DNA of 32,850 nt, taken from Demequinaceae bacterium. GTDB lineage: Bacteria; Actinomycetota; Actinomycetes; Actinomycetales; Demequinaceae. Where the stretch lies: assembly GCA_017882825.1 (NCBI GenBank), contig JADGOS010000005.1, positions 1 through 32,850 of the forward strand, given 5' to 3'. Made by a program: the position numbers and the translations under genes. The notes below the pieces were generated by a model. That model searched no databases, was not told the DNA's origin, and worked only from the letters and a program-made list of their open reading frames with translations. Positions 16,585 through 32,850 of this stretch are shown in pieces (the stretch's first letter is position 1; every line of letters begins with the position of its first letter).

Positions 16585-17145
16585 CTATGAAGGTGCCCCG
16601 CCGTACACGTGCGGCGCGAGTGCGGCAACGAAGGGCAGGCCGCGGTAGCGCTCCGCGTAGTCGAGCCCGAATCCGACGACGAACTCATTGGGAATCTCGA
16701 TCCCGACGTAGCGCACGTCCGTCTTGATGACGGCGGCGTCCGGCTTGCGGAACATCGCGGCGACCTCGACCGAAGCCGCCCCACGGGAGCGAAGGTTTGC
16801 GACGAGCCACGCGAGCGTGCGGCCGGAGTCGACGATGTCCTCCACGATGAGGACGTTGCGTCCCGTAACGTCGGCGTCGAGGTCCTTGAGGATGCGCACG
16901 ACGCCGGAGGATCGGGTCCCCGCACCGTACGAGGAGACGGCCATCCAGTCCATCGGCACGGTCGCCGGAAGCCGCCGCGCGAGATCGGCCATCGTCATGA
17001 CCGCGCCCTTGAGGACCCCAACAAGAAGGAGGTCCCGGTCGGCGTAGTCCGCGCGTATCGCCGCGGCCAGGCGGTCGAGCGCGAGGCGGATGTCCTCCTC
17101 CGTGGCAACGACCCTCAGAAAGTCGCTCGAGTCCTCGTCCGTCAC
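16585..17145 (-). CDS. hpt: hypoxanthine phosphoribosyltransferase
   Basis: A purine-salvage enzyme that joins PRPP to hypoxanthine or guanine. The PRPP-binding signature VLIVEDIVDSGRT is exact (about residues 104-116). The flexible-loop segment SSYGAGTRSSGVV and the base-binding end region (EFVVGFGLDY) are present. The GTG at 17145 gives 186 residues, normal for the family, and overlaps the tilS stop as GTGA. The long ORF to 17904 is an artefact of the tilS antisense-frame composition. tilS-hpt-ftsH is a widely conserved trio. Confidence 0.96.
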   Translation of the reverse strand: MTDEDSSDFLRVVATEEDIRLALDRLAAAIRADYADRDLLLVGVLKGAVMTMADLARRLPATVPMDWMAVSSYGAGTRSSGVVRILKDLDADVTGRNVLIVEDIVDSGRTLAWLVANLRSRGAASVEVAAMFRKPDAAVIKTDVRYVGIEIPNEFVVGFGLDYAERYRGLPFVAALAPHVYGGAPS

Positions 17146-18140
17146 GCGTCCGCCTCTCCGGGTTCCGGGGTATCCGTCACGATGAGCCTGCCATATTCGC
17201 GGCGCGCCTCGAATCCACCGGGAAGGGCGACGGCGCCCTGACCGCGGTAGTTCGTCACCAACTGGTCCATCGCCTTGACGTGACTCGCGGTCAGCGGGCC
17301 CGCGCCGCGCTTCTCCGCGAGCATCTTGAGCATCCGGCCCCGGATCGCCTCCGGCAGGGCGAGGAGCACGTCCACCGAGTAGGCGTCCGCGGCGCCATGG
17401 GCACCCAAAACCGCTCGCGCCTGGCGCTCCAACTCGTCGGCGTCGGCCTGGAGGAGCGCGGCCGAACGCGCGAGGCCGGGCACGACGCCAGGTCCGAGGA
17501 TCTCTACCAGCGCGGGCATCACCGTCCCCCGAAGCGCGGATCGCCGCGGTCCCCCGTCCGGGTCGTTCGATGGGTCTCTCCACGGCTTCAGGCCGAGCGC
17601 CACGCAGGCCGCGAGCGTCTCGCTCCGCCGGAGCCCGAGAAACGGACGTACAAGGTTTCCGCGCCGGGGAGGCATTGCGGCGAGCGTCCGAGCCCCCGAT
17701 CCCCGCGCGAGGCCGAGCAGGACGGTCTCGGCCTGGTCGTCCATCGTGTGGCCGGTCAGGAGTTGCGGATTCATCCCCCCCTCCGCCTCCATGCGGTGGC
17801 CGATCGCCTCGTAGCGCGCGGTGCGCGCCGCCGCCTCGAGGCCGCCGTCGCGGCCCACCTTGACCCTCTCCACGTGGACCACGGCCATCCCGGCGAGTCG
17901 GCATTGATCCTGGGCGTCGAGCGCGACCCTGCCGCTGCCAGGGAAGAGCCCGTGATCGACGACGATCGCCCCACCGACGAAGCCCAACTTGCGCGCCACG
18001 AAGGCCGTCGCCGCGGTGAGCGCGAGGGAGTCAGGGCCTCCCGAGCACGCGACCCACACCCTGGTCCCCGGCTCAAGGCCCTCAAGCGCCTCGCGAACCG
18101 CGCTTCGGGTCGCGGCGACCGCGGGATGCGGCCCGGTCAC
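17142..18140 (-). CDS. tilS: tRNA(Ile)-lysidine synthetase
   Basis: Converts C34 of the tRNA-Ile CAU anticodon to lysidine so it reads AUA. The PP-loop ATP site SGGPDS (about residues 34-39) is intact, with VDHGLF near 80, GHTMDDQAETVLLGL near 130 and PPRRGNLVRPFLGLRR near 160. A C-terminal substrate-binding region follows. Length 332 is usual for actinobacterial TilS, which is shorter than the E. coli enzyme. The start is a GTG with GGAGAG 4 nt upstream, 24 bp after the dacB stop. Confidence 0.95.
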   Translation of the reverse strand: MTGPHPAVAATRSAVREALEGLEPGTRVWVACSGGPDSLALTAATAFVARKLGFVGGAIVVDHGLFPGSGRVALDAQDQCRLAGMAVVHVERVKVGRDGGLEAAARTARYEAIGHRMEAEGGMNPQLLTGHTMDDQAETVLLGLARGSGARTLAAMPPRRGNLVRPFLGLRRSETLAACVALGLKPWRDPSNDPDGGPRRSALRGTVMPALVEILGPGVVPGLARSAALLQADADELERQARAVLGAHGAADAYSVDVLLALPEAIRGRMLKMLAEKRGAGPLTASHVKAMDQLVTNYRGQGAVALPGGFEARREYGRLIVTDTPEPGEADA

Positions 18141-22873: not shown

Positions 22874-25741
22874 CTACCGCGCGGCGCGCTCCGCGAGGAG
22901 TTGGGCTAGGTGCCGCCCGGTGACTCCCGCGAGGTCGTCCGCCTGCGTGCGGCACGAGTAACCGTCCGCCAGGTAGATCGAACCCTTCGGCGCGTTCGCG
23001 AGGGCGGGAAGAAGCGACGTGCCCGCGACGGTCGCCGCGAGGTCGTAGTGGTCCGCCGTCGTGCCCCACATCCCGGCCATGCCGCAGCACCCCGACGCCT
23101 CGATGACGGTCGCTCCGGCGGAGGCGAGAAGCTCGCGGTCGGCGCCGAAGCCCATGACCGAGTGGTGGTGGCAGTGCGGCTGGACGACGGCGGTAACGTC
23201 CGAGAGGTCGGGCACCTTCCAGCCGTCGCGGGGCTTGATAGGGCCGCGTCCGGTGAGCATCTCGGCGAGCGTGAACACGCCGCGCGAGACGGCGTGGGCG
23301 CGGGGGTCTTCCGGCAGCAGCTCCGTGAGGTCGGAGCGCAGCGCGGCCATGCACGAGGGCTCGACGCCGATGATCGGCACCCCGTTGACGGCGAAGGGGC
23401 CAAGCACGCCTAGGAGCTTCTCCATGCGCCTCCGGGCGCCCTCGAGTTGGCCCGTCGTGATCCACGTGATCCCGCAGCACGCGTCGCCGGCCGAGACGGC
23501 CACGTCGAAGCCCGCGTCCTCCAGCACCGCGACGAGCGCCTCGGGGATGGCGGGGTCTAGCCCGTCGGTGAAGGAGTCGGCCCACAAGACGACGAGTCGC
23601 CCCTTGGCGGTGGTTGCCTGCAAGCCCGCGGCCTTGCGCCGCGACGCGGCGCTCCTCGACTTCGCCGTCTTGCTGTTCCGGAAGGGCGTCGCGGCGAAGC
23701 GCGGCATGTGGCGGCGCGTGTCGAGCCCCGCGAGCTTCACGACGATGCGCTCGATCCAGCGCGGCTTCAACAGGGCGTTGATGAGGCGCGGCGCGATGGC
23801 GACGAGCTTGAGCCAGCGCGGGAGCCACCCGAGCGAGTAGTGCATGATCGGGCGGACCTTGCCCTTGTAGCGACGGTTCAAGACCTCGGCCTTGTACGCG
23901 GCCATGTCCACGCCGGACGGACAGTCGGATGAGCACGCCTTGCACGCGAGGCACAGGTCGAGCGATTCGATGACCTCCGGGGCCGTGAGCCCGCCGATGA
24001 GGGAGCCGTTGATCGCGTCCTGGAGCACACGCGCGCGACCGCGCGTCACGTCCTTCTCGTCCTTGGTCGCGGCGTAGCTCGGGCACATGAAGCCGGTGCC
24101 CTCCTCGATCGCGTCGCCTCGGCACTTGCCGACGCCCGTGCACCGGTGGACCGCCTCGGACAGGTCGCCGTGGTCGTGCTCGAACGCCCACCCGCCCCTG
24201 CGCTTGACGGCGGGCGCGGCGGGCCTGCGCAGGTCCGCGTCCAGGGGGCGCGGGTCAACGATGATGCCGGGGTTGAGGAGGTTCTCCGGGTCGAACAGAC
24301 CCTTGATTTCGCCGAAGGCACGGATCGCGTCGGGACTGTACATCGCGGCGAGGAGCTCGGAGCGCGCGCGGCCGTCCCCGTGCTCGCCCGAGAGCGAGCC
24401 ACCGTGCCGGGCGACGAGCGCCGCAGCCTCCTCCATGAAGGCGCGCAGGGCGGAGCCGTCGGTCCCGAGCGGGATGTCGAGGCGGACGTGGACGCACCCG
24501 TCGCCGAAGTGTCCGTAGGGCTGCCCGTGGAGCCCGTGTCGATCCATGAGGACGTCGAAGTCGCGCAGGTACGCGCCGAGGTTGGCCGGCGGAACGGCGG
24601 CGTCCTCCCAGCCCGGCCACGCCTCGTTGTTGTCCTCCGTGCGCCCCGCGAGCCCCGCGCCGTCGGCTCGGATGGCCCACAGTGCCGTCGCCTCGCGCGG
24701 GTCCTCAACGATGCGCCGGGCGATCGCGCCGGTGTCGGCGGCGAGGGCTGCCATCGCGCGCCTCGCCTCCTCCGGCGTGTCCCCCCCGACCTCGACGAAG
24801 AGCCAGCCGGCGCCGGCGGGAAGCTCGGGGATGCCCCGGCCGCCCTTGGCCTTGCGGACCCGCTCGACAATGCGGGCGTCGAGGCCCTCGATCGCCTGCG
24901 GGCCGTGGGGCAGGAGCGCGACGACGGCGTCGGCGGCCGACGGCATGTCGTCGTAGCCGAAGACGCCCATAAGCGTGGCCTTGGGGCTCGTGACGAGTTT
25001 GACCTCCGCCTCGAGGACGGTCGCGAGGGTGCCCTCGGTCCCGACGAGGAAGCGCGCGAGGCTATGGCCGTTCTCGGGAAGCAGGTGCTCGAGCGAGTAC
25101 CCGGACACCTGGCGAGAGAAGCGACCGAACTCCGGCCGAATCATGGACAGGTTCTTGGCGACCCACTCCTCCAGCCCGTCGACGGCGGAAAGGTCGTCCG
25201 AGGCGATGAATCGCGTGCCCATCCCGTCCGCCACGTCGAGCGACACGATGTTGTCCGACGTCCGGCCGAACGCGACGGCATGGGGGCCGCAGGCGTTGTT
25301 GCCGATCATGCCGCCGAGGGTCGCGCGGGTGAGGGTGGAGGGGTCGGGGCCGAAGCGAAGGCCGTGCAGGGCGGCCGCGCGCTGAAGCGTCGCCAGAATC
25401 GCGCCGGGCTGGACCCTGGCCGTTCGCGCCTCGGCATCGACCGAGATCACGGCGTTCATGTGGCGCGACGTGTCGAGCACGAGGCCCGTCCCGATCGCGT
25501 TGCCAGCTACCGACGTGCCGCCCCCGCGCATCGTCACCGGAAGCCCCATGTCGCCCGCGAGGGCGAGCGCACACAGAAGGTCGTCTACGTCGAGGGGGAA
25601 GGCGACGATCTGGGGCACGACGCGGTAGTTGGAGGCGTCGGACGAGTACTCGGCCCTGCGCCGCGACGAGGAATCGACCTCGCCCCGAATCACCTTCCGC
25701 AACGCGGTCGCGAAGGTGGCGACGGGGGGGGCGGTGGTCAC
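22874..25741 (-). CDS. FAD/Fe-S D-2-hydroxyacid dehydrogenase (GlcD-GlcF type fusion, YdiJ-like)
   Basis: A 955-residue multidomain oxidoreductase. Order: PCMH-type FAD domain (about 35-260: MRGGGTSVAGNA, GMIGNNACGPHAVAFGRT) and FAD-oxidase C-terminal domain (to about 510: GHFGDGCVHVR, SGEHGDGRARSELL). Next is a ferredoxin-like region with CTGVGKCR...MCPSY and CLACKACSSDCPSGVD (about 535-610). Two CCG-type repeats follow (DACCGITW near 758, GCCGMAG near 890). This is the layout of D-lactate/D-2-hydroxyglutarate dehydrogenases such as E. coli YdiJ, which pass electrons through Fe-S centres, probably to the respiratory chain. The exact substrate cannot be read. The start is a GTG, as is usual in this window. 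It stands alone between metX and a DMT-like gene. Confidence 0.92.
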   Translation of the reverse strand: MTTAPPVATFATALRKVIRGEVDSSSRRRAEYSSDASNYRVVPQIVAFPLDVDDLLCALALAGDMGLPVTMRGGGTSVAGNAIGTGLVLDTSRHMNAVISVDAEARTARVQPGAILATLQRAAALHGLRFGPDPSTLTRATLGGMIGNNACGPHAVAFGRTSDNIVSLDVADGMGTRFIASDDLSAVDGLEEWVAKNLSMIRPEFGRFSRQVSGYSLEHLLPENGHSLARFLVGTEGTLATVLEAEVKLVTSPKATLMGVFGYDDMPSAADAVVALLPHGPQAIEGLDARIVERVRKAKGGRGIPELPAGAGWLFVEVGGDTPEEARRAMAALAADTGAIARRIVEDPREATALWAIRADGAGLAGRTEDNNEAWPGWEDAAVPPANLGAYLRDFDVLMDRHGLHGQPYGHFGDGCVHVRLDIPLGTDGSALRAFMEEAAALVARHGGSLSGEHGDGRARSELLAAMYSPDAIRAFGEIKGLFDPENLLNPGIIVDPRPLDADLRRPAAPAVKRRGGWAFEHDHGDLSEAVHRCTGVGKCRGDAIEEGTGFMCPSYAATKDEKDVTRGRARVLQDAINGSLIGGLTAPEVIESLDLCLACKACSSDCPSGVDMAAYKAEVLNRRYKGKVRPIMHYSLGWLPRWLKLVAIAPRLINALLKPRWIERIVVKLAGLDTRRHMPRFAATPFRNSKTAKSRSAASRRKAAGLQATTAKGRLVVLWADSFTDGLDPAIPEALVAVLEDAGFDVAVSAGDACCGITWITTGQLEGARRRMEKLLGVLGPFAVNGVPIIGVEPSCMAALRSDLTELLPEDPRAHAVSRGVFTLAEMLTGRGPIKPRDGWKVPDLSDVTAVVQPHCHHHSVMGFGADRELLASAGATVIEASGCCGMAGMWGTTADHYDLAATVAGTSLLPALANAPKGSIYLADGYSCRTQADDLAGVTGRHLAQLLAERAAR

Positions 25742-26715: not shown

Positions 26716-26798
26716 CGCCGCGCTCCGCCCCGACCGGAATCGCGACCAGTCTCCTGGCATGATCCGGGTGTCGCGTGGCGTTACCAAAGGGAGTACTC

Positions 26799-27968
26799 AT
26801 GTGGCCATTGTGTGTCACGCCCGGCGGAACCGGGGAGGACGTGCCGGGAGGCGACGTGAGGTCCGTGCTGAGAGCGACCGATGCGGACCCGCCCACGCTC
26901 TCTCCGCACGTGCAAGACCAGTTGGCCGCGGGCCGTGACCAGCTCACCACGTGGTGGCCCTCGGTGTTCGCGCTGGTGTTGGCCATCGCGTTGCTGGTTT
27001 GGGCGCTGAGGTCCCCCCGACGCAAGGCGCGGGCGTGGCTGGGCGTTCTCGGAGCGGTGCTGGTCGTCGCCGCCGGCGTCGCGCTGGGCATCAACACGTG
27101 GAGCGGGTACGCACCGTCCCTCGCCTCGGCGACGCGGCTCGTGAGCGCCCACGCCGTCGCCGCCACCGAGACGACGGGGGCGCTCACCCCCGTGTCGATC
27201 CCCGTGGCCGATGCACTGAAGATGCCGGAGTCGACCACCTGGATCTACACGCCGCCCGGCTACGACGCCTCGGCGGCCACGCGCTATCCGGTGGTGATGA
27301 TGATTCACGGCACCCCCGGACGCTCCGCGGACTGGACGGTGGGCGGGGACATGGCTCACACGATGGACGTGCTCATCGCGAACGGTCTCATTCAGCCAAT
27401 GATCGTCGTGATGCCGGAGGTCAACGGGTTTGGCCTCGACCAGCGCGACACCGAGTGTCTGAACTCGACGCGCGGGGGGCCGCAAGTGGAGACCTACCTT
27501 TCGAGCGTCGTGCTGCCGTGGGTCGACGCGCACTACGCGACGGCGGCAACGTGGCAGTCGCGCGCGATCGGCGGCGTGTCCGCGGGCGCGTTCTGCGCCA
27601 TGGACCAAGGCCTGCGGCATCCCGAACTCTACGGGGCAATCGCGTCGATCGAGGGCTACGACAACCCGGGCGACGGCGGCCGCGCGATGCTTGCCGCCGA
27701 CGCCGAGTACGCGGCGCACTCCCCGGGCGTCTACATCGGAACCATGACGTTTGAGCACCCCGTGCCCGCTTTCGTCGGCACCGCCGGCAAGGGGGACCCG
27801 AGTGACCGGCTCTCGAACGAGAAGATGGCCGCCGCGCTCGAAGCCCGCGGGCAGGAGGTCGAGTACCGGAGCGTCCCGAACGGCTATCACACCTGGATCA
27901 CCGCTCGGGAACTGCTCCCCTACGCGCTGATCTTCGTATCGGACCATCTGACCGTGGAGCGCGCGTAG
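26799..27968 (+). CDS. membrane-anchored alpha/beta-hydrolase (esterase D/antigen 85-like)
   Basis: A putative esterase displayed outside the cell. From the ATG at 26799 (AAAGGGAG upstream) it has two N-terminal membrane helices (about residues 50-70 and 80-100), then an extracytoplasmic hydrolase domain of about 270 residues. The nucleophile elbow is GGVSAGAFC (about residue 265) and the His is in NGYHTW near 364. The acid is probably an Asp in between. TWIYTPPGYDAS and VVMMIHGTPGRSADW are typical of the esterase D family, which includes mycolyltransferases and other acyl-transferring enzymes. The substrate is unknown. The gene ends 15 bp before the tRNA fragment that marks the right-hand junction. 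Confidence 0.85.
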   Translation: MWPLCVTPGGTGEDVPGGDVRSVLRATDADPPTLSPHVQDQLAAGRDQLTTWWPSVFALVLAIALLVWALRSPRRKARAWLGVLGAVLVVAAGVALGINTWSGYAPSLASATRLVSAHAVAATETTGALTPVSIPVADALKMPESTTWIYTPPGYDASAATRYPVVMMIHGTPGRSADWTVGGDMAHTMDVLIANGLIQPMIVVMPEVNGFGLDQRDTECLNSTRGGPQVETYLSSVVLPWVDAHYATAATWQSRAIGGVSAGAFCAMDQGLRHPELYGAIASIEGYDNPGDGGRAMLAADAEYAAHSPGVYIGTMTFEHPVPAFVGTAGKGDPSDRLSNEKMAAALEARGQEVEYRSVPNGYHTWITARELLPYALIFVSDHLTVERA

Positions 27969-27983
27969 CTCCCCGGGATCTCG

Positions 27984-28028
27984 TGGAGCCGCCTAAGAGA
28001 ATCGAACTCTTGACCTATTCATTGCGAG
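27984..28028 (-). other. 3' fragment of a tRNA gene (tRNA-Thr-like); candidate attachment-site scar
   Basis: On the minus strand this stretch has a complete T-arm (AAGAG-TTCGATT-CTCTT), the variable loop AGGTC, the 3' acceptor strand AGGCGGC, a T discriminator and an encoded CCA. The anticodon-loop region (CTCGCAA) and 3' stem strand TGAAT follow the pattern of actinobacterial tRNA-Thr(CGU) from memory. The 5' stem strand mispairs, and no D-arm or 5' acceptor strand follows, so this is not a working tRNA. Such 3' remnants form when an element integrates into a tRNA gene. The acceptor end faces left, so host DNA would be to the left and element DNA to the right. Confidence 0.75.
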
Positions 28029-28035
28029 TCAACGT

Positions 28036-28051
28036 CGCGGGCTTCCCCGCG
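28036..28051 (-). terminator. GC hairpin downstream of the aldolase gene
   Basis: CGCGGG-CTTC-CCCGCG, a 6-bp stem with a tetraloop, lies about 60 bp past the aldolase stop and next to the tRNA fragment. It may end the right-hand transcript. No T-tract follows. Confidence 0.4.
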
Positions 28052-28111
28052 GCTTCCGCATCAGGCCCGGTCGAACCACGTTCCCGCCGCCGACGCCGAG
28101 CATGGCGCGAG

Positions 28112-28999
28112 TCAGGTCGCCGATGCCCGGAAGATGCTCCCGATCGCCGCATCGAGGGCGGCGTCGAACTCGGTCTCGCTCTGCTGGGCGGACAGGCCGC
28201 CGGTGAGTGCCCGGGAGAAGCTCGCGACCACGCCGTGATTCCTGGCTAGGCGCGCGTTCGCCTCCTCGAGGGAGTAGCCGCCGGACAGCGCGACGACGCG
28301 CAGCACCCGCGGGTGCTTCACGAGATCGCCATAGAGTCCGTCCTCCTCGGGCAGCGTCAGTTTGAGCATCACCCGCTGGTCGTCCGGGAGCTTGTCGAGT
28401 TGCGCCGCGATCGCGGCCGTCACCAGGGCCTCCGCCCTGGCCTTCTGCGGACTGTGGATGTCCACCTCCGGCTCGATGATCGGCACCAGCCCCGCGTCGA
28501 GGATTCGCCGTCCGATCTCGAACTGCTGGGCCACGACGGCGTCGATCCCAGCCTCGTCGGCCAGCAGGACGACCGAGCGCATCTTGGTGCCGAACACCCC
28601 GTGGGTCTTCGCTCGGGCAAGGAGGTCGTCCAATCCGTCCATCGGCTTCATCAGGCGCACGCCGTCGGCCTGCTCCTCCAGCCCCTGGTCGACCTTCACG
28701 AACGGAACGACGTGCTTGTCCTCCCACAGGTACTCGGCGGCGCCCTTGCCGCCGACCCGGCGCTCCATGGTCATCTCGAACAGGATCGCGCCGAGGATCC
28801 GCTCACCCGTGAAGGCCCGGCTCGTCATGATCCTGCTGCGCATCTCGTGGATGAGGTCGAACATCTGCGCCTCGCTCGCGTACGAGGTCTCGTCGAGCCC
28901 GTATGCCGCCAGCGCCTTGGGCGTGCTGCCCCCGCTCTGATCCAGAGCCGCGATGAAGCCAGCCCCGCTCTCGATCTTCCGGAGCTGTTCGGCGTTCAT
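28112..28999 (-). CDS. fda: class I fructose-bisphosphate aldolase
   Basis: Cleaves fructose 1,6-bisphosphate to two triose phosphates through a Schiff-base lysine, with no metal needed. The 295-residue length and the sequence follow the bacterial class I type (FBA-I, as in Staphylococcus): ESGAGFIAALDQSGGSTPKAL at the start, VPFVKVDQGLE near 80, VPIIEPEVDIHS near 172, VMLKLTLPEEDGLY near 210 with the likely Schiff-base Lys, and ALSGGYS near 237. Most actinobacteria rely on a class II enzyme, so this may be a second aldolase. It lies downstream of etfA on the same strand, but 166 bp with two strong hairpins separate them, so it may be transcribed alone. Confidence 0.92.
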   Translation of the reverse strand: MNAEQLRKIESGAGFIAALDQSGGSTPKALAAYGLDETSYASEAQMFDLIHEMRSRIMTSRAFTGERILGAILFEMTMERRVGGKGAAEYLWEDKHVVPFVKVDQGLEEQADGVRLMKPMDGLDDLLARAKTHGVFGTKMRSVVLLADEAGIDAVVAQQFEIGRRILDAGLVPIIEPEVDIHSPQKARAEALVTAAIAAQLDKLPDDQRVMLKLTLPEEDGLYGDLVKHPRVLRVVALSGGYSLEEANARLARNHGVVASFSRALTGGLSAQQSETEFDAALDAAIGSIFRASAT

Positions 29000-29048
29000 G
29001 ACAGTCCTTCCGTCGAGACCGATCGCGCCGGTCGGTAGTGGGCGGAGA

Positions 29049-29059
29049 TGGTCCGACCA
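29049..29059. promoter_or_regulatory. short palindrome upstream of the aldolase gene
   Basis: TGGTC-C-GACCA is an 11-bp perfect palindrome with a single central base, about 50 bp upstream of the aldolase start. It could be an operator half of a GGTC-type site. This is weak, positional evidence. Confidence 0.25.
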
Positions 29060-29100
29060 CCGAGACTGTCCGCGCTCCGTCGGATTTCAACGGTAGTCCT

Positions 29101-29157
29101 CGCGATCGCGACAGGGGGCGATCGCGTGGTCATCGCGGCGGCGTTGGGCCGCCGCCG
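29101..29157 (-). terminator. two strong hairpins between etfA and the aldolase gene
   Basis: Two stems follow each other just after the etfA stop: CGGCGGC/GCCGCCG (29136-29157, 8-nt loop) and CGCGATCGC/GCGATCGCG (29101-29126, a perfect 9-bp stem with 8-nt loop). Together they could terminate or attenuate the fix/etf transcript, or protect its 3' end. There is no U-tract. Confidence 0.5.
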
Positions 29158-29165
29158 ACAACCGA

Positions 29166-30257
29166 TCAGGCGTCGGCCGCGAGCAACTCGTTGACCTTTG
29201 CCATGACCTCGAAGGCGTCGGCGACGTAGAGCACGTCGGCCTTGCCCTGGGCCCAGCCGCAGGTCTCGTCGAGGTTGATCGCCCGGCGCTCGGAGATAAA
29301 GCGCCAGCCGACGACGTGTGGCTCCTCACCGTGGCAGCAGGTCGCGAGACCCTTGCGGTGGCGCGGTGTCGAGCCGGTCTGGCCGACCTGGTTGAGGTGG
29401 CTCATGAACGACATGACCTCGGCGCCCTCGGAGCTCTGGTCGACGAGCGACTTGCTGCTACCGAGCGAGGCGCGGGCGAGCTCGAGGAAACCGAGGATCA
29501 GGCGCTCGGCGTCCTTGACGTGTGTCGCACCGTCCTTCTGCTTCTTGGTCCAGCCGGCGCCAGCGACCAGCAGGGTTTCGGCGTCGGGGCGGATGGTCTG
29601 GGCCTCGGTGGTGGCGGCCTCGATCCCCGTAACCCGCGTGCGAAGCTCCGCAACAGTGAGGTCAACCGCCACGTCCTCGAGACTGGCCTTGCCGGGCTCT
29701 GTCGTCGAGGGCTCGGTCGTCGAGGGCGCGGTCGACGCGGGCGCAGTCGGCGCGGGCGCAGTCGGCGCGGGCTCGAATGCGCCGGGGCTCGTGAGCAGGA
29801 ACCATGGGCGCTGGCTGCGGCTGAGCTTCGCCACCATGCGCTGCCGGTAGAACCAACGCTCGCCAACCACGGCGTCGCCCTCGGCAAAGAGCGCGGTGAC
29901 CTGCGTCTCGATCCGACCATCGAGCCGCGCGGCTGCGCCAGGTAGCGCCCGGCAGAACCGCGGAGTCGCCGGGGCAACGACGATCGTCGCCGCGGACTTC
30001 TCGACGAGGGTGGCGGCCGCGGCGACGTCACTGGCGTAGCGCGAAACGGCGAACTCGGCGCCGCTCACGCCCAGCACCCGCTCGATCCCGGTCAGGGTAT
30101 TCGCCGCCGCGGCGACATCCGCGCCGATCAAGCCAGCGGCAAGGGTCGCTCCCTTGAGGTCGCGGGCGAGGTTCTTCGCTGCGGTCAACGCTTCGTACGC
30201 GGCCTTGGGCAGGGTGCCGTCCGCCTCGGCGTGGGCCAGGAAGAGAATCTTGTCCAT
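29166..30257 (-). CDS. etfA: electron transfer flavoprotein alpha subunit (FixB-like), atypical
   Basis: Large subunit of an ETF that passes electrons from a dehydrogenase to FixC-type quinone oxidoreductase. Domain I is recognisable (MDKILFLAHAEADG start; LPGAAARLDGRIETQVTAL near 98; YRQRMVAKL near 130). A Pro/Thr/Ala pentapeptide-repeat linker (about residues 164-190) precedes the C-terminal FAD domain. There NQVGQTGSTP matches the conserved QVGQTG loop. The usual SGAIQH segment is replaced by CHGEEPHVVG, and the INKDP/APIF block is rewritten (AINLDETCGWAQGKADVLYVAD). Length 363 exceeds the usual 310-330. The start follows the etfB stop by 14 nt. The family call is safe, but electron partner and bifurcation ability are not readable. 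Confidence 0.87.
   Translation of the reverse strand: MDKILFLAHAEADGTLPKAAYEALTAAKNLARDLKGATLAAGLIGADVAAAANTLTGIERVLGVSGAEFAVSRYASDVAAAATLVEKSAATIVVAPATPRFCRALPGAAARLDGRIETQVTALFAEGDAVVGERWFYRQRMVAKLSRSQRPWFLLTSPGAFEPAPTAPAPTAPASTAPSTTEPSTTEPGKASLEDVAVDLTVAELRTRVTGIEAATTEAQTIRPDAETLLVAGAGWTKKQKDGATHVKDAERLILGFLELARASLGSSKSLVDQSSEGAEVMSFMSHLNQVGQTGSTPRHRKGLATCCHGEEPHVVGWRFISERRAINLDETCGWAQGKADVLYVADAFEVMAKVNELLAADA
29694..29768 (-). repeat. five 15-bp in-frame repeats in etfA (pentapeptide linker)
   Basis: Five 15-bp units starting GGGCTC or GGGCGC on the plus strand encode APTAP, APTAP, ASTAP, STTEP, STTEP in the EtfA hinge between domain I and the FAD domain. The copies are close enough to be recent expansions. 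Confidence 0.85.
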
Positions 30258-30271
30258 GGTTCGTAGCCTCC

Positions 30272-31081
30272 TCAGCCCTTGATCCAGGTGACGATCTCCT
30301 GCGCGATCTCGTCCGCGGAGGAGTCCTTCACGACACGCGTCTCACGCCGCTGCTGCGGCACCTCGGCCGCCCACCAGGTTGTGCCTACCCCACCGAGCGG
30401 TGCCGACTTGGCCTGCGCCAGCGCCGGCATGATCGTCCGCATGTTCTGCATGCCGACCTGCGGGCTGTTGGGCGGTTCGGGCAGCGAGCCGGTCGCCCAG
30501 GCCGCGACGAGCGGCGGCCCCTCGCAGACCGAGGCGAGGTAACGACCGCCCTCGACACGCTCGAGGACTCGGATCGAACCGTCGTCCAGCACCTTCAACT
30601 CGTCGACACCGAAGAACTGGTCGTGGATGCCGAGCCGCTCGCCGACCATCTGCACCGTGACGCCGGCATCGCGAGAGGCCGAAGCACAGCCGCCGAAGAG
30701 CAGGAGCCGGGACCGATCGAGGCCGTCGATCGCCTCGATCGCCGCAGCGAGCGCCGCGGCGACCTCGAAGGAGTCGGTGAAGCCGCTGGCAGAGCCATCG
30801 AGGGCAACGAGTTCGAGCGGCACCTTCTGCGCCACCCGCATCATGAGCTGCTGTAGCTGGGCCTTGGGCCCGAGGCTGACCAGCCACACCTTGCTGCCTG
30901 GGGTCTGCGCCGCGAGGTGTGCGGCCTCGTAGAGCGCATGCCCGGCCCACGGGTCGAGCACCGAGGGCAGCATCGCCTCGTTCTTCAGCGCGGGCCGGTC
31001 GCCACCGAGCACCGGCTCCAGGGTCTGGATCGGGTCGGGCACGAGGCTGCCACACACGACGATATGGAATCCGTCAGTCAT
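30272..31081 (-). CDS. etfB: electron transfer flavoprotein beta subunit (FixA-like)
   Basis: Small ETF subunit, 269 residues. Family features: a VVCGSLVPDP opening in place of the common VKQVPD, NEAMLPSVLDPWAGHALYEAAHLA matching the usual NPFDEIALEEALRLKE segment, LLLFGGCASASRDAGVTVQMVGERLG in the AMP-site region near 127-152, and a C-terminal arm (MQNMRTIMPALAQAKSAP) that reaches over EtfA. The AMP-site consensus DGDTAQVGP is altered here (RDAGVTVQMVG), so the bound cofactor (AMP or FAD) is uncertain. It lies between fixCX and etfA on the same strand. Upstream there is a duplicated 16-bp block that carries its Shine-Dalgarno. Confidence 0.87.
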   Translation of the reverse strand: MTDGFHIVVCGSLVPDPIQTLEPVLGGDRPALKNEAMLPSVLDPWAGHALYEAAHLAAQTPGSKVWLVSLGPKAQLQQLMMRVAQKVPLELVALDGSASGFTDSFEVAAALAAAIEAIDGLDRSRLLLFGGCASASRDAGVTVQMVGERLGIHDQFFGVDELKVLDDGSIRVLERVEGGRYLASVCEGPPLVAAWATGSLPEPPNSPQVGMQNMRTIMPALAQAKSAPLGGVGTTWWAAEVPQQRRETRVVKDSSADEIAQEIVTWIKG

Positions 31082-31085
31082 CAGT

Positions 31086-31117
31086 CATCTCCAAGATCGG
31101 TAATCTCCTAGATCGGT
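31086..31117 (-). repeat. 16-bp tandem duplication carrying the etfB Shine-Dalgarno
   Basis: Minus strand: ACCGATCTAGGAGATT followed directly by ACCGATCTTGGAGATG, so the GGAG ribosome-binding core occurs twice. The proximal copy is 7 nt from the etfB ATG. The duplication fills nearly all of the 39-bp gap after fixCX. Confidence 0.8.
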
Positions 31118-31120
31118 GGC

Positions 31121-32850
31121 TCAGTTTTCGGCGGAATGCAGTCCTCCGGCGCCCGCCTGCAAGGCGATGGCCGCGGCGTCGTGACCCGGTTCGCGTGGCG
31201 CTGGACAGCTCCACTGGCAGGCGCCGCAGTGTACGCACTTCTCGCGGTCGAAGAGGGGAACACCGCCCTCCCCGCCCAGCGTCAACGCCTGCCCGGAGCA
31301 GATGGCGATGCACGGCTTGGTCTCACAGGCCGCGCACTCCGCTGGGGCGAGGAACACGACATGGTCGGCGTAGCCCGGCGGTGCCTGGACCTTGCCGCCA
31401 ATCAGCAATGCGTCTTGCTGAGAGACCAGGAGTTCGCCGTCGAACGGAATGCTCGGCCAGCCAGCTCGGTCCATGTACACGTCCTGCAGCGGTCGCTGCG
31501 CCCCGCTCGCCTCGGCCTCGATGCGTTCGATCTCGCTGGCGGGGATCTTGCCCTTGAAATACTCGGCCAGGCTCCCCACCTCGCGGACCTTCGCCTTGCT
31601 TTCGTCGCGCGCGTTGAGCCGACCGCGCGTCAAACCGGTGAGACCCATGCCGATCAGGCCACGGACGAAACCACGCCGGAACCCGACCCGCGCCTTGGCC
31701 GCGACCCTGCTCTCCTTGTCGAGCGCGCTCTCCCGGCGGCGCGCGACGTAGGTCCTCTCGAGGTTGTCGCGGGTGAACGGCTGCTTGCCCCGGAGCAACT
31801 CAAGCACCGCCTCGGCGAGCTGCACGCCGGTCGTCCAGGCCTCGTCGACACCGGAGTTGGTCAGAACATTCGTGCTGCCCGAGCCCTCGCCGATCCGTGC
31901 GTAGCCGTCGCCGCACAGGTGGGGCTCACCCTCGCGACCGGACTCCTGCAACGATTTGGCCCCCCATGAGCGCAGCTTGCCGCCCTTCAGGTGCCGCCAG
32001 AGGTACGGGTGCTGCATCCAGTGCTGCAGGTAGCGGTAGCTGCCGCGCACCGGACTGTCGAGGGACGACGGCACGAAGATCCCGAGCGAGGCAAGACCCG
32101 GCTGGTGGACGTACAGGAAGCCGAAGATCTCTGGTTCGGGGTAGCCCATCGTGTGCAGCACGGTGCCCGGTTCGAGCGCACAATCCTCGGGCAGGTCCAC
32201 GACCATCTTCATTCCGATCGCCCAGTCGCGCCGCACATGGCCCTCAGGCAATCCGAAATGCTCGTCGAGCCTCCGGCCGATCGGGCCGACGGGGCCATCG
32301 GCGACGACGGTCAGCGCCGCCTTGATGTCCAAGCCGGGGAGGTAGCCGGCCTCGGGCTCGCCCCTCAGATCCGTGCCCTGGTCGACAAGTCGCACACCGA
32401 CGACGGCGTCGTCTTCGATCAGCGGCTCGGCGACTGGGGTGCCCGGCCAGAGTTGGACCTGCGCTTCGGCCATCAGCTGGCCGGCGACCCACTGGTTGAA
32501 CTGGCCGATGCCGAGCACCAGCCCGCCGTCCTTGCGCAGGAACCTGGGGATGTAGGGGAGGGTGAAGGCTTCATCACGCACCGGAAGCATGAAGCGCAGT
32601 CCGCGCAACATCGTGTCGGCGCAACGCACCGCGAAGCCGCGCCGGCTAGCGCCGATCGGGTCGAGCAGGTAGACGACCTTCTCGCTCGTGACCGGCGCGG
32701 TCATCGGGATCCCTGCCGGATCGAGGTCGGGGTACGTCTGGCGGATTGATGTAGCCCGCGTGACGACACCGGACACACCGAAGCCGAGGTCGTCGGCCCG
32801 CTCGTAGCAGACGACCTGCGGCGGCATGCCTGGCATCGCGCCACTCTCGA
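31121..32850 (-). CDS. fixCX: FixC-FixX fusion: FAD ETF-quinone oxidoreductase-like protein with Fe-S domain (5' end cut)
   Basis: Probably accepts electrons from EtfAB and passes them to the quinone pool. The frame stays open to the right edge, so the N-terminal FAD GxGxxG lies outside the window. The visible part begins near the acidic end of that fold (VVCYERADDLGFG). FixC features follow: YIPRFLRKDGGLVLGIGQFNQWVAGQL, the second FAD segment at LTVVADGPVGPIGRRLDEHFGLPEGHV, and GSTNVLTNSGVDEAWTTGVQLAEAVL near residue 320. The last 90 residues form a FixX-type ferredoxin with CAACETKPCIAIC and CVHCGACQWSCP, enough cysteines for two 4Fe-4S clusters. FixC and FixX are normally separate genes, so this fusion and the second cluster are notable. 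The ORF-track Met at 32836 is unlikely to be the start. Confidence 0.88.
   Translation of the reverse strand, partial: ESGAMPGMPPQVVCYERADDLGFGVSGVVTRATSIRQTYPDLDPAGIPMTAPVTSEKVVYLLDPIGASRRGFAVRCADTMLRGLRFMLPVRDEAFTLPYIPRFLRKDGGLVLGIGQFNQWVAGQLMAEAQVQLWPGTPVAEPLIEDDAVVGVRLVDQGTDLRGEPEAGYLPGLDIKAALTVVADGPVGPIGRRLDEHFGLPEGHVRRDWAIGMKMVVDLPEDCALEPGTVLHTMGYPEPEIFGFLYVHQPGLASLGIFVPSSLDSPVRGSYRYLQHWMQHPYLWRHLKGGKLRSWGAKSLQESGREGEPHLCGDGYARIGEGSGSTNVLTNSGVDEAWTTGVQLAEAVLELLRGKQPFTRDNLERTYVARRRESALDKESRVAAKARVGFRRGFVRGLIGMGLTGLTRGRLNARDESKAKVREVGSLAEYFKGKIPASEIERIEAEASGAQRPLQDVYMDRAGWPSIPFDGELLVSQQDALLIGGKVQAPPGYADHVVFLAPAECAACETKPCIAICSGQALTLGGEGGVPLFDREKCVHCGACQWSCPAPREPGHDAAAIALQAGAGGLHSAEN

Follow-up and report, generated by a model that had tools for sequence, protein, structure and literature searches.

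A tRNA-Thr 3′ remnant as the probable far end of an integrase-less island in a Demequinaceae genome

Between a putative esterase gene and an aldolase gene of a Demequinaceae bacterium lies what appears to be the back half of a tRNA gene. How did it come to lie there, and does it mark the boundary of acquired DNA? The stretch analysed here, called the window, is 32,850 nucleotides long and constitutes contig C96 of a metagenome-assembled genome (MAG) of 1.81 Mb in 177 contigs (G000). A preliminary description of the window took the fragment for a scar of tyrosine-recombinase integration. We consider it highly probable that positions 27984-28032 are the displaced 3′ fragment of an island at the anticodon-loop site of tRNA-Thr(CGT). 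The comparison genome used throughout is a Demequinaceae MAG of the same genus (JAFGBM01, G001), hereafter the sister species. Features of the window are collected in Table 1.

Table 1. Features of the window around the tRNA-Thr remnant
Feature	Position	Strand	Basis
FAD-linked oxidase / Fe-S protein, backbone landmark	22874..25741	-	same side and strand of tRNA-Thr in G032, G023 and G001
Putative esterase, first gene on chromosome side of remnant	26775..27968	+	PF00756
tRNA-Thr(CGT) 3′ remnant, probable distal att scar	27984..28032	-	47/49 identity to intact gene
Spacer with 6-bp hairpin CGCGGG-GAAG-CCCGCG, remnant to TauE scrap	28033..28054	.	read from sequence
TauE/SafE (PF01925) scrap, 48 bp	28055..28102	-	91.7% identity to L046:18738-18785, inside G001 TauE
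fda, class I fructose-bisphosphate aldolase, module 1	28112..28999	-	PF00274
Junction between modules	29014..29146	.	G001:C3 homology ends 29013; G001:C1 homology begins 29147
etfA, electron transfer flavoprotein alpha, module 2	29166..30257	-	PF01012
etfB, electron transfer flavoprotein beta, module 2	30272..31081	-	PF01012
fixCX-type ETF:quinone oxidoreductase with fused C-terminal 4Fe-4S domain, module 2	31121..32850	-	PF21162, Fer4, PDB 2gmh ETF-QO

Over 49 nt with two mismatches (E = 1e-16, C74 against the window), the fragment aligns to an intact tRNA-Thr(CGT) gene at C74:136-211 on the minus strand, called as tRNA-Thr(cgt) by ARAGORN and the single intact copy in the assembly. It spans tRNA positions 28-76 and includes the T arm, variable loop, acceptor 3′ strand and CCA recognised in the preliminary description, together with the anticodon loop and the 3′ strand of the anticodon stem; the limits proposed there, 27984-28028, were right at the start and slightly short at the end. 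From CCA to anticodon loop, 40 nt are exact. The outer edge of the match falls exactly at the CCA and the inner edge within the anticodon stem. The name tRNA-Thr(CGU) suits the parent gene, while the remnant itself reads CGC, a substitution within the anticodon triplet. As expected for a half gene, ARAGORN and Rfam called no tRNA at the remnant. The whole assembly contains this stretch in two copies only, with none for a reversed-pattern control. Because the anticodon loop is kept in the remnant, the crossover is of the anticodon-loop class. The spacer that follows had no match in the sister species, and its hairpin is possibly the fda transcription terminator or the element end. The junction region of the window had no match among plasmid or phage records.

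The genes to the right of the remnant are related to the sister species differently from those of the backbone. Identity at four-fold sites was 0.737 for fda, 0.778 for etfA, 0.779 for etfB and 0.769 for fixC, whereas 23 backbone genes taken from C74, C170 and the left of the window gave 0.321-0.610 (median 0.443). The two ranges do not overlap, giving an exact one-sided p = 5.7e-5, which is a guide only, since genes that share a locus do not count as fully independent; an ORF antisense to a real gene (16591-17238, plus strand, 0.848) was left out of the statistic. Backbone proteins that are 86-88% conserved still show a four-fold identity of about 0.485, so constraint at the protein level does not account for the contrast. 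The distribution of the cargo is likewise restricted. Of 396 genomes sampled in the order, two, both of this genus, have a strong fixC homologue, and a sample of 397 from the phylum yielded none outside this genome; a search of both samples for an etf/fix donor returned none outside this genus. All 11 genomes tested of Demequina (g3, another genus of the family, so called here by kinship) lack etfA, and the ETF:QO homologues in plasmid records are distant without exception, with identities under 60%. Across 80 public genomes, the surroundings of fda gave no recurring fda-etf linkage, and its flanking context was shared by the sister species only, apart from two weak matches to the esterase in Mycolicibacterium/Mycobacterium. 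We rejected a G+C shift as an island marker, there being no difference across the boundary (0.687 vs 0.696). The four-fold identities and restricted distribution indicate that the DNA between the ends was horizontally acquired; the segment right of the remnant was gained, or exchanged, later than the split between the two species.

On the left, the gene order resembles that expected downstream of an uninterrupted tRNA-Thr. The FAD-linked oxidase gene lies 5.7-5.8 kb downstream of tRNA-Thr, on the tRNA strand, in Demequina G032 and G023. In the window it lies 2.2 kb past the remnant on the same strand, with a backbone-like four-fold identity to the sister species (0.487). This placement identifies the left part of the window as the flank that ancestrally lay downstream of tRNA-Thr, with the remnant in the expected place of the tRNA. 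The order tmk-holB-hydrolase-tRNA-Thr, which leads up to the intact gene, is conserved. The polarity deduced earlier, with element to the right and backbone to the left, agrees with both the four-fold identities and the position of the oxidase. The esterase has no close homologue in the sister species and a 69% homologue elsewhere in G035. None of the relatives compared had the esterase-fragment-fda order and no island. In the sister species, two ferredoxin-containing MinD/ParA-type ATPase genes with NifX-like and PadR-like genes (L046:14654-16440) sit between tRNA-Thr/fda/TauE and the FAD oxidase; they are missing there in the window.

The remnant and the intact tRNA sit on different contigs, and the fixCX gene is cut by the contig end. 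In the sister species, the next gene past fixC encodes a 688-aa acyl-CoA dehydrogenase (acdh) and adjoins fixCX-etfBA. The 52 bp upstream of that acdh (L173:15747-15798) match C74:44-95 at 87% (E = 2e-11 in G001), a stretch 40 bp from the CCA of the intact tRNA, between the tRNA and the end of C74. This stretch had no second match below E = 0.01 in G000 or G001, and its next best match in any searched genome had E = 0.002. The orientation of the match agrees with C96 facing C74. Since C74:44-95 matches the region upstream of acdh and acdh adjoins fixCX-etfBA, both contig ends point into one operon. The acdh gene itself was not found elsewhere in the assembly. C96 and C74 would face each other over about 2.2 kb that lie outside the assembly and are expected to hold acdh, as the corresponding stretch does in the sister species. 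The predicted map runs from backbone through the remnant, the TauE scrap, fda, etfA, etfB, fixCX, the gap of about 2.2 kb and the intact tRNA-Thr to backbone again. The island would then comprise 135 bp of C74, the gap and 4.8 kb of the window, or about 7.1 kb, a length that assumes the sister-species spacing in the gap. An intact tRNA-Thr beyond the right edge had been predicted, and the gene on C74 fits that prediction by way of the C74:44-95 match, through which we infer the linkage; the accompanying expectation of a large element fails, as some 7 kb is small.

The island genes seen are fda, etfA, etfB and fixCX only, with no int, rep or tra. No integrase is present in 28033-32850, consistent with the earlier remark that none was in view, or in C74:1-135, so that the search proposed for an intact tRNA-Thr(CGU) with an integrase near it yielded the gene alone. 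The assembly encodes two PF00589 proteins, both Xer-like with Phage_int_SAM_1 N-terminal domains, and no other integrase. Within etfA, a Pro/Ala/Thr-rich repeated insertion (TAPAPTAPASTAPSTTEPSTTEP; 29714-29763) is not found in the sister species, and the DNA alignment to that genome breaks there.

Relatives provide direct evidence that tyrosine-integrase elements use the tRNA-Thr(CGT) site with this crossover. Extra 3′ copies of the gene were found in G006 (one), G007 (two) and G035 (three), with one degenerate copy in G025. Their cores begin within tRNA positions 27-36 and run to the CCA, with 4 mismatches in one of the G007 copies. Each copy in G007 has a tyrosine integrase directly beside it, in a tandem array at tRNA-Thr(CGT) (L083, G007:C10:1-20000). 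One element of the array encodes an integrase, an FtsK/HerA-like ATPase and a RepSA of the pSAM2 type; a second carries a type II restriction-modification pair, with a GmrSD/HNH nuclease and an EcoRI-type methylase. In G006, a tyrosine integrase adjoins the remnant, at a distance of about 37 kb from the tRNA. Two further copies deserve mention. A perfect 40-nt copy in G035 (L079:7237, G035:C1:2619197) is inverted and 2.2 Mb from the tRNA. Its 3′ flank resembles the one beside the intact tRNA, which suggests either a large inversion or insertion of an element at another place. The degenerate copy in G025 (L174:8559, G025:C1; 34/40), 1.6 kb downstream of the intact tRNA-Thr, is probably an old scar.

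We propose that a tyrosine recombinase recombined an attB in the tRNA gene with an element attP that included a copy of the 3′ half of the tRNA. The intact tRNA of C74 would have been rebuilt at the proximal end and the old 3′ half left at the far end of the window island. The cargo remaining would be about 7 kb, with acdh (in the gap), fixCX, etfB, etfA, fda and the tauE scrap. As no integrase is seen, the island would be degraded, or mobilised by an integrase encoded elsewhere. Both the physical linkage across the gap and a tyrosine integrase as the agent are deduced here from sequence comparison.

The cargo may have been gathered in two steps, a variant history of the proposed integration that is not exclusive of it. 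An fda-TauE island would first have entered at tRNA-Thr, leaving the remnant; acdh-fixCX-etfBA would have followed, between the tRNA and fda, without a Thr remnant and possibly with a tRNA-Met end. In the sister species, fda lies about 200 bp 3′ of tRNA-Thr, a complete TauE gene comes after it and no remnant is present, where the window has the TauE scrap between fda and the remnant; acdh-fixCX-etfBA lies on another contig, near tRNA-Met. Since fda and the etf module occupy separate loci there, the island was not passed down as a single unit, and homology to the sister species switches sharply between the modules at 29014-29146. The claim that everything to the right of the remnant is element DNA therefore stands as regards foreign origin, but must allow for two modules with separate locations in the sister species. 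Similar four-fold identities for fda (0.737) and the etf module (0.77-0.78), as if they had moved together, speak against two steps, as does the outcome of a search for a tRNA remnant at the junction, where none was found. We rate this history somewhat below even odds; a single integration event for both modules is not proven.

A possible trace of the second step lies beside the intact tRNA. Positions C74:99-125 (L048), 11-37 bp past the tRNA-Thr CCA, are T-arm-like and match the tRNA-Met 3′ end (C170:8513-8586), in the same orientation, at 22 of 27 positions. Their score of 14.5 was exceeded by none of 100 simulated flanks (mean 9.0, sd 0.96) and tops all non-cluster tRNA flanks of the assembly. 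The tRNA-Asn flank comes near at 14.0, so the Met scrap is not unique; this flank, on C170 (L020), scores 14 against the tRNA-Phe 3′ end and is possibly another old tRNA remnant. C170 is also the counterpart of the sister-species etf-module locus, and the module is missing from it. Together with the position of the module by tRNA-Met in the sister species, the C74 stretch is suggestive only of a module that came from, or shared, a tRNA-Met site. That the acdh-ETF:QO-ETF cargo moved between tRNA genes in sister species, with the tRNA-Met scrap carried along, seems unlikely; if true, it would represent an integrase-less mobile module re-targeted between tRNA attachment sites.

Allelic exchange, in which homologous recombination at the tRNA and its flanks brought in the segment with its remnant, would account for a cargo closer to the sister species than the backbone is, and for an island without an integrase. 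We regard it as improbable, as homology ends exactly at the CCA and the anticodon stem, the geometry of site-specific recombination, and the left flanks differ between the two species. A misjoin in assembly or binning at the 40-nt tRNA repeat is a natural concern in a MAG of 177 contigs with a repeat at the junction. However, an ordinary read is longer than the repeat, whose copies differ at two sites; C96 and C74 independently point to the same operon and each have homologues in the same-genus sister species; and a swap at the repeat would simply yield the same element in its excised form. An artefact is thus very improbable. Partial tRNA genes can result from duplication, but a decayed duplicate or chance tRNA-like sequence is scarcely credible given the 47/49 match, foreign DNA on exactly one side and an anticodon-loop cut point common to element ends in three other genomes.

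The preferred reading, a displaced fragment at the far end of an island, places the locus in a known class. The Islander signature is a tDNA and a displaced fragment with the island between them, and 2083 of 3919 Islander islands have anticodon-centred sites (PMC4383910). As in these anticodon-loop ("A") islands, an intact tRNA-Thr is present in the genome, and a fragment of it, an end rather than an internal piece, runs from the anticodon region to the CCA. Foreign DNA would lie between the two, and placement of the fragment downstream in the same orientation is consistent with the inferred map, on which the homologue-based match bridges the gap, and the island would exceed the 2-kb minimum of the 2-200 kb range (PMC4383910) if the sister-species spacing holds. 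Unlike Islander islands, it has no tyrosine integrase in its assembled part, so that the Islander filter would reject it, and its ends lie on two contigs. Among actinomycete integrative and conjugative elements (AICEs), tRNA-Thr is the target of pSE211-type integrases, and relatives of these enzymes can use other tRNA genes, tRNA-Met among them (PMC3218068). The pSAM2-like AICEs are known by an integrase, a replication initiator and an FtsK-type Tra. The G007 array occupies the same tRNA-Thr(CGT) site, whereas the window island is cargo only and has none of the three. The G006 island and G035 remnants share the same tRNA gene and att core; the G006 island differs in being larger, with an integrase adjoining its remnant. 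Among the results listed in a literature search, none concerned Demequinaceae islands.

Islands of this kind at tRNA genes, including the tRNA-Thr site in Actinobacteria, are already known, and the present one appears to be an integrase-less anticodon-loop case. A bare tRNA 3′ scrap without an integrase can mark the boundary of acquired DNA in a fragmented MAG, here with the other island end hidden by a contig edge; a case like this would escape island finders whose criteria include an integrase. The cargo is respiratory (ETF and ETF:quinone oxidoreductase) together with an aldolase, and tRNA-Thr(CGT) emerges as a repeated integration target in the Demequinaceae.
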